A program made the translations under genes and the position numbers. The notes under the pieces were generated by a model. That model was not told the origin of the DNA. It saw only the letters and a list, made by a program, of their open reading frames with translations, and did no database searches. A DNA stretch of 64,000 bases from contig NZ_JAJCVJ010000001.1 in the NCBI RefSeq assembly GCF_020567425.1, positions 1,302,001 to 1,366,000 of the forward strand, given 5' to 3'. The DNA comes from Salinirubrum litoreum. Lineage in GTDB: Archaea > Halobacteriota > Halobacteria > Halobacteriales > Haloferacaceae. This document shows positions 1,380-55,060 of the stretch, one piece after another (the first letter of the stretch is position 1; every line of letters starts with the position of its first letter).

Positions 1380-1453
1380 CACCTCGGTCCTCCCCAGCCT
1401 CGGGGTTCTCTCCGCACCGCCCGAACCCCTCCCTCGCGCGTTTCTCGCGCGCC
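1380..1453 (+). repeat. Two-hairpin unit of composite locus A
   Basis: After the constant segment CTCCCCAGCCTCG, positions 1402-1408 (GGGGTTC) pair with 1423-1429 (GAACCCC) around a loop containing CTCTCCGCACCGCCC. A second stem CGCGCG/CGCGCG (1435-1440 with 1446-1451) follows the constant CTCCCTCG. Comparable units at 15957-16023 (minus), 31104-31183, 43744-43834 and 54983-55060 keep the flanks and loop but use different, still complementary stem sequences. Confidence 0.65.
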
Positions 1454-1618: not shown

Positions 1619-1658
1619 GGTGGGACTGAAAGGGGCCGAGAGCGCGGGGGCTTTCACC
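1619..1658 (+). repeat. Short form of the GGTGGGACTGAAAGGGGC element
   Basis: The constant 5' end GGTGGGACTGAAAGGGGC and constant 3' end GGGGGCTTTCACC are joined by only a few bases here (CGAGAGCGC). The 138-145-base forms at loci B, C and D carry long paired arms between the same ends. GAAAG can still pair with CTTTC, giving a minimal hairpin. It may be a deletion derivative of the full element. Confidence 0.75.
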
Positions 1659-15897: not shown

Positions 15898-15956
15898 TTC
15901 GAGAGTGCTTACAAATAGAGAGTTGCGTGCGATTCGGTTCAGAGTCCGGCGTGCGC

Positions 15957-16023
15957 GACCCCGACGCGCGCGAGGGAGGCGGGCGCTCTCGTGCGCCCGC
16001 CGAGGCTGGGGAGGACCGAGGTG
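15957..16023 (-). repeat. Two-hairpin unit of composite locus B
   Basis: On the minus strand this is the CTCCCCAGCCTCG unit. Its hairpin is GCGGGCGC (16000-15993) with GCGCCCGC (15986-15979) and a six-base loop, followed by CTCCCTCGCGCGCG. The stem sequence is unrelated to those at loci A, C, E and F, yet fully complementary. Confidence 0.65.
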
Positions 16024-31103: not shown

Positions 31104-31183
31104 GCACCTCGTCCTCCCCAGCCTCGACCGCCTCTCCGCACCGCCCGGCGGTCTCCCTCGCGCGCGTCGGGGTCGCGCGCGCC
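31104..31183 (+). repeat. Two-hairpin unit of composite locus C
   Basis: After CTCCCCAGCCTC, GACCGCC (31126-31132) pairs with GGCGGTC (31147-31153) around the constant TCTCCGCACCGCCC-type loop. A second stem CGCGCGCG/CGCGCGCG with loop TCGGGGT follows. Stem one differs from every other copy while pairing is kept. Confidence 0.65.
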
Positions 31184-43589: not shown

Positions 43590-43850
43590 ACATCTGTCCG
43601 AGGCGACTACAGACCGCAATCGTAGCCCGCGACCCGAAGGAGTGTCTACCCGAGACGACCACAGACCGCAATCGTAGCCCGCGACAACACCCACAACCGC
43701 TACGAGCGCTAACGCACCCCCAGCGGAACCGCAACCGCAACCGCACCTCGGTCCTCCCCAGCCTCGGCGAACGCTCTCCGCACCGCCCGCGTTCGCCTCC
43801 CTCGCGTGCGCGTCGGGGTCGCGCACGCGCCGACCGCATCCTCCGCAGAC
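43590..43850 (+). repeat. Composite intergenic repeat, locus E (5' part only)
   Basis: Only the opening array and the two-hairpin unit (43744-43834) are present in this 420-base gap; the structured element is absent. The array contains an exact 25-bp direct repeat (43609-43633 and 43661-43685, period 52). The 3' end of DUF373 follows at once (43898), so the locus may be truncated there. Confidence 0.75.
43744..43834 (+). repeat. Two-hairpin unit of composite locus E
   Basis: GGCGAACG (43766-43773) pairs with CGTTCGCC (43790-43797). The second hairpin is GCGTGCGCG (43804-43812) with CGCGCACGC (43820-43828) around loop TCGGGGT. Relative to locus C, the second helix has a matched change on both sides, which is direct evidence that pairing matters. 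Confidence 0.68.
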
Positions 43851-54982: not shown

Positions 54983-55060
54983 ACACCTCGTCCTCCCCAG
55001 CCTCGAGGACCTCTCCGCACCACCCGGTCCCCTCCCTCGCGCGCGTCGGGCGCGCGCCGG
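54983..55060 (+). repeat. Two-hairpin unit of composite locus F
   Basis: GGACC (55007-55011) pairs with GGTCC (55026-55030) around CTCTCCGCACCACC. CTCCCTCGCGCGCG follows, then a second stem CGCGCG/CGCGCG across TCGGG. The first stem is shorter than in other copies. Confidence 0.6.

Follow-up and report, generated by a model that had tools for sequence, protein, structure and literature searches.

Module 2, the CTCCCCAGCCTCG two-hairpin unit, is in our reading a tagged double-hairpin repeat that Halobacteria carry in many copies between their genes, a REP-like site that acts as a folded strand rather than a domain of one RNA, and we give this reading a probability of about one half. Between orthologous sites of Halorubrum the first hairpin (hp1) is replaced wholesale while the tags stay, and it is this behaviour, with tags kept and hairpins exchanged at inherited sites, that is new. 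Here a repeat family of archaea, present more than 100 times in several genomes, keeps its sites and tags while hairpins are exchanged, and this is a natural experiment that tells apart two sources of covarying stems, selection on the fold and copying of whole hairpins. It is also a warning that covariation among repeat copies alone is no proof of RNA.

Architecture and copies of the unit

The window is the whole stretch of 64,000 nucleotides of the Salinirubrum litoreum genome that was analysed. Its five copies of module 2, and the separate element beside copy 1, are as follows (hp2, second hairpin).

1380-1453, plus strand: copy 1, whole unit; 13-mer 1390-1402, hp1 arms 1403-1408/1423-1428, 3' tag from 1429, hp2 1435-1440/1446-1451
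1390-1402, plus strand: copy 1, invariant tag CTCCCCAGCCTCG, exact match
1403-1428, plus strand: copy 1, hp1, GGGTTC - TCTCCGCACCGCCC - GAACCC
15948-16023, minus strand: copy 2, whole unit; 13-mer 16001-16013, hp2 with an A.C mismatch
15979-16000, minus strand: copy 2, hp1, GCGGGCGC - ACGAGA - GCGCCCGC, hexaloop class
31104-31183, plus strand: copy 3, whole unit; 13-mer 31114-31126, hp1 31127-31152 (ACCGCC/GGCGGT), hp2 31159-31166/31174-31181
43744-43834, plus strand: copy 4, whole unit; 13-mer 43754-43766, hp1 43767-43796 (GCGAACGC/GCGTTCGC), hp2 43803-43812/43820-43829
54983-55060, plus strand: copy 5, whole unit; 13-mer 54993-55005, hp1 55006-55031, hp2 55038-55044/55050-55056
1620-1658, plus strand: main element beside copy 1 (GTGGGACTGAAAGGGGC...GGGGGCTTTCACC), separable and outside module 2

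The five exact 13-mers reported in the first-pass annotation were all found where it had placed them. It had also given every copy a CTCTCCGCACCGCCC-type loop, which fails for copy 2, where the hexaloop ACGAGA is present instead, and had ended copy 2 at 15957, whereas the second hairpin, with its A.C mismatch, reaches 15948. The first stems were described there as all perfectly paired, but that of copy 5 (AGGACC/GGTCCC) has an A.C mismatch at the outer, basal position. The proximity to the main element holds in part: only copies 1-3 have a full main element on their 3' side. In copy 4, hp2 contains a T-A pair matched on both arms. Minimum-energy folding recovered both hairpins for copies 1, 3 and 4; the folding z-scores ran from -0.1 to -2.9, with two just above zero, modest values that reflect the GC-rich region, and they were uninformative.

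The S. litoreum genome carries 76 exact copies of the 13-mer, the window's five included, and none of its reversed control pattern. Side-by-side comparison of these copies and their flanks gave the plan (A/C-rich run)-CCTC-N3/4-CTCCCCAGCCTCG-hp1-CTCCCTCG-hp2, in which the 13-mer is invariant in every copy, hp1 and the 3' tag CTCCCTCG are nearly always present and the CG-rich hp2 is usually so. The hp1 statistics leave out three copies in which no 3' tag could be recognised and cover the other 73. In most of the 73, the arms of hp1, 6-8 bp long, enclose a loop that is either 14 nt long (TCTCCGCACCGCCC and its close variants) or a hexaloop, namely ACGAGA, ATGAAC or CTGAAC. The arms comprise about 30 sequences, many of them found twice, and their departures from pairing are mostly single transitions, with longer insertions in a few copies. 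At three S. litoreum loci (L018, L026 and L073) the hp1 arms are parted by a block of ~50 bp with two further hairpins.

With gene calls from a simple codon-usage gene finder, all 76 S. litoreum copies and 85/85 copies in named genomes were extragenic. In S. litoreum the median distance is 259 nt to the gene on the 5' side and 539 nt to that on the 3' side, and the orientations of the neighbouring genes are even (21/20/19/16), so that a terminator or leader of a neighbouring gene was rejected for this genome. Converging genes flank 39/85 copies in the named genomes, compared with the even spread in S. litoreum. The 13-mer is also evenly distributed between strands (41/35 in S. litoreum, 53/52 in genome G158); a replication-polarity or uptake motif was discarded on these counts and because the conserved unit contains a hairpin. 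On contig C1 of genome G000, 9 of 40 copies lie in the first 1.13 Mb and 31 past it.

Covariation of the hairpin arms

Covariation among the arms, which had been proposed from the window, was confirmed by genome-wide alignment. All five outer hp1 pairs are Watson-Crick in 60 of the 73 S. litoreum copies; 2000 permutations of the 3' arms among copies gave 3.4 on average and never more than 11. In the 6-bp class of S. litoreum (26 copies), 96.8% of the cells are paired (shuffled, 53.9%), the covariation score is 1.052 (0.178) and double-change cells number 67 (18.7); in its 8-bp class (21 copies) the corresponding values are 98.2% (75.0%), 0.735 (0.258) and 42 (10.4). A 33-nt class of Halorubrum (39 distinct sequences) is paired in 96.2% of cells, with 60 double-change cells against 16.3 in shuffles, and a mixed-genus hexaloop class (23 chosen rows) in 98.4%, with 40 against 9.2. 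This last set, in which 7/8 pairs change on both sides, brings together S. litoreum, genus g11, Halorussus halobius and genus g44 (probably Halorussus), which have the tags and an NTGAAC-like loop in common.

In all four alignments, none of 500 shuffles matched the observed percentage paired, double-change cells or covariation score; the two measures that count pairs or pair types separated observed from shuffled less well (405/500 and 189/500, for instance, in the S. litoreum 6-bp class). Sliding the partners by 1-3 columns left 13-51% of cells paired across the alignments, and 28-48% in the two S. litoreum classes. Thus there is covariation beyond the shuffled and slid controls, as is asked of a structured non-coding RNA. 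Random pairing as frequent as that observed, which the first-pass annotation had named as evidence against its claim, was not found. The modest folding z-scores would suit chance pairing in GC-rich DNA; nevertheless, with 60/73 copies fully paired against 3.4 expected, and a score that no shuffle reached and that lies far above the slid controls, this explanation is refuted and retains virtually no probability. Copies elsewhere with unpaired arms, also named there as contrary evidence, do occur in one genome, G034, in 6/6 fetched copies.

Hairpin types within and between species

The spread of the unit was followed with searches that required exact tags. The full tag-N-tag pattern is present in 21/155 genomes and 5/58 genera of the order, and its reversed control gave no match in the 155 genomes. 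Halorubrum (genus g14) has the unit, with 109-176 tags in the four genomes counted, and the bare 13-mer is found there 12 to 176 times per genome among the matches listed. There are 90 copies of the 13-mer in G014 (genus g15) and 14 in G034 (genus g10), and it is rare elsewhere in the family. In G014, which represents a second genus of the same family, the stem is longer (about 16 bp) and the loop A/C-rich, while G034 keeps the tags with no hairpin between them. A contig scan gave, among the matches listed, mostly Halorubrum, and also Halorussus, Halobellus and Haloprofundus; outside Halorubrum and the genus of G014 the unit is sparser and limited to a few genera, one of them in another family. 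A viral origin was rejected, as only one stretch was found among the viral contigs of the IMG/VR collection.

Inherited sites were compared in two ways. Among 14 locus pairs with both flanking genes shared in order, the hairpin is entirely different in most and the same in three, two of which, with neighbours 100% identical, seem to be one locus or its duplicate. In addition, three neighbouring genes were used as baits in 52 Halorubrum genomes, with up to 30 sites per gene, and tags were found downstream of them at 9/29, 15/30 and 8/30 orthologous sites. Over the resulting 83 ortholog pairs, the median identity of hp1 is 0.53-0.59 across all bins of neighbouring-gene identity, equal to the 0.58 of non-orthologous pairs (n=170). 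An identical hp1 was seen in 4/83 ortholog pairs, and in none of the seven pairs whose neighbouring gene is 0.95-0.97 identical. The clearest case is L094 versus L175, both from Halorubrum, where hp1 has been exchanged between intact tags and the upstream region is near-identical. In other pairs hp1 changed in part or not at all: L289 and L290 differ at a few of its positions, with tags and hp2 near-identical, and L126 and L151 share one hp1. The RFC locus also includes short sites that lack the element (L270, L272, L295), one copy with an internal deletion, and tags changed by a single letter. Such empty sites would bear on a comparison with MITEs, whose marks are terminal inverted repeats and a target-site duplication. 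No hp1 exchange event was seen inside one species.

Within S. litoreum, the flanks say almost nothing about hp1 type: flank likeness is 0.67/0.68 for pairs of the same type (n=35) and 0.64/0.65 for pairs of different types (n=1561). An identical hp1 is 2.5-4x likelier within than between two Halorubrum genomes (0.020 and 0.031 versus 0.008). Moreover, the nearest arm type is one base pair off for 7/8 types in the S. litoreum 8-bp class (null 0.35) and for 14/14 types in the Halorubrum 10-bp class (null 0.61); among the 6-bp arms of S. litoreum this holds for 4/12 types (null 0.22), where a stepwise series is not clear. Taken together, the near-neighbour arm types and the whole-hairpin differences show two processes: within a loop class the arms change step by step with compensation, and whole hairpins are replaced.

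Other blocks were seen at the same sites. In four Halorubrum loci (L142, L293, L314 and L132) a double-hairpin block (GCCGGCGGCGAAGCCGCCGGC ... AGAGAGACC..GGTCTCTC) is inserted within hp2. At L268 and L301 unrelated sequence interrupts hp1, and probably insertion sequences landed in the hairpin. In many g14 genomes the matches to the RFC small subunit gene are split, which is consistent with inteins coming and going.

Competing explanations and known relatives

The first-pass annotation had treated module 2 as independent covariation evidence beside the main element; the covariation stands, and the reading of both as one RNA does not fare as well. In S. litoreum GTGGGACTGAAAGGGGC lies 3' of 33/76 module-2 copies; in Halorubrum the main element is 5' of module 2 and in the opposite orientation to that seen in the window. 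By exact patterns, genome G016 contains 65 main tags and none of module 2, and G013 contains 109 of module 2 and four of the main element. Therefore the two are separate units, not tied to each other. The stems speak to the same question, as RNA stems tolerate G.U and not A.C. On the C strand, hp1 departures are 4 G.T to 4 A.C in S. litoreum and 5-6 to 5-8 in others, and thus in these small counts a G.U preference is absent on either strand, which speaks against RNA selection on either. The one-RNA reading is weakened because the modules are untied, hp1 shows no G.U preference and hp1 is replaced wholesale.

That the G-rich strand gives a structured non-coding RNA (hp2, then hp1, then CGAGGCTGGGGAGG), with compensatory selection on its stems and single-strand tags bound by protein, is a different matter, and we regard it as possible, if on the unlikely side. 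Its covarying stems would be explained, and invariant tags with free stems are also expected of a protein-bound RNA. Departures in hp2 are strand-biased: by a strict count there are 24 A.C to 0 G.T on the C strand in S. litoreum and 15 to 3 in Halorubrum (39 to 3 in total). With a looser fit the figures are 33:8 and 38:37, and counted as distinct arm pairs they are 6 in S. litoreum and 7 versus 2 in Halorubrum, the independent events being fewer because of shared ancestry. This bias favours folding of the G-rich strand, or transcription-linked mutation there. In Halorubrum, 85/178 copies have a TATA-like heptamer in one 10-nt bin, 10-19 nt past hp2, against 0.004 expected per 10 nt, and as a sequence motif this is possibly a promoter. 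However, the centre of an archaeal TATA box usually lies about 27 nt from the start, which would put the start within hp2 and not before it, and a promoter model built on these heptamers was not adopted. In S. litoreum such a box is present in 7/66 copies only, at 30-39 nt. The absence of strand bias in hp1 and its wholesale turnover between orthologs also stand against an RNA, as does the search of the window with Rfam 15, which at gathering thresholds gave no match.

The REP-like folded-strand site that we prefer would work as follows. The tags would be recognised, or would recombine, once the strand folds, and the sequence of the hairpin would barely matter provided that its arms pair. New hp1 types may spread by short recombination or gene conversion among copies, the crossovers falling within tags that the copies share, and single compensated base-pair changes would be drift between replacements. 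By analogy with REP/BIME, its putative role would be that of a folded-strand (cruciform or single-strand) site for protein binding or processing. Against this reading, the hp2 bias of 24:0 and 15:3 resembles RNA folding of the G-rich strand, G034 has tags without a hairpin and the 6-bp arms of S. litoreum are not clearly stepwise. A system dedicated to hairpin exchange is a more doubtful proposal: fixed recombination tags at scores of conserved sites, with whole hairpins swapped from copy to copy into species-specific reshuffled sets, would be served by a putative recombinase acting on single strands or hairpins, or else by repair of the Mre11-Rad50 kind, which cuts hairpins, with conversion afterwards among the genome copies of the polyploid cell. 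The unit might also have no function, with gene conversion spreading palindromes that mutation bias, through template switching at hairpins or arm-templated correction, keeps perfect; strand-neutral hp1 departures, fast hp1 turnover and the many other hairpin blocks that appear and disappear between the same genes would agree with this, but we think it unlikely, as the 13-mer and the 3' tag are unchanged across several genera and two families in exact-tag searches, in surroundings that are all different, and loop classes are common to several genera.

Most known tagged extragenic palindromes come from bacteria, often with a tie to RAYT transposases. In the general sense of a multi-copy extragenic palindrome, module 2 is a REP (76/76 copies intergenic, 60/73 with five outer pairs); in the RAYT-associated sense, neither the GTAG/CGTC tag nor the tie to a Y1/RAYT transposase was found. 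That it is a classical REP mobilised by a RAYT or IS200-type Y1 transposase is accordingly very improbable, even with its many extragenic, orientation-independent copies of short tagged hairpins and with Y1_Tnp in 13/14 genomes searched. The invariant ends are CTCCCCAGCCTCG and CTCCCTCG, not GTAG or CGTC, and positions are conserved between species rather than newly inserted. Y1_Tnp is present in all tag-bearing genomes searched except G013, which is 99% complete, has 109 tags and gave no PF01797 match, and six tag-free genomes have 2-10 matches.

As described in PMC3733652, REP/BIME elements are likewise short tagged hairpins, extragenic and in many copies, with REP subfamilies that have alternative complementary stem residues. 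Compared with them, module 2 has a 13-bp tag and a second tag on the other side instead of GTAG/CGTC. A single genome combines the one tag with tens of unrelated stems, hairpins are exchanged at conserved sites and, in G013, there is no Y1 dependence. The RepRanger REP catalogue of bacteria and archaea also deals with palindromes between genes; its main text has no word starting with "Halo" and does not name this family (PMC12306157). In the literature searched, neither the repeat nor the hairpin exchange was found described, and the 13-mer appeared only in an unrelated paper on a sheep promoter. Structured RNA families of Rfam 15 share covarying stems and conserved unpaired segments with module 2, which differs in having no window match at gathering thresholds and no strand preference in hp1.

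The attC sites of integrons have conserved boxes around a variable terminal hairpin and are recognised as a folded single strand. Conserved boxes round a variable hairpin are found in module 2 as well; however, it has no gene cassettes or array, and its conserved boxes are not mutually complementary. As a further observation, at three Halorubrum loci (L149, L209 and L290) tandem units of ~57 bp (TTATAAAT...GAACACC..AAAGCCCCAGCC), up to several repeats, precede the main element.
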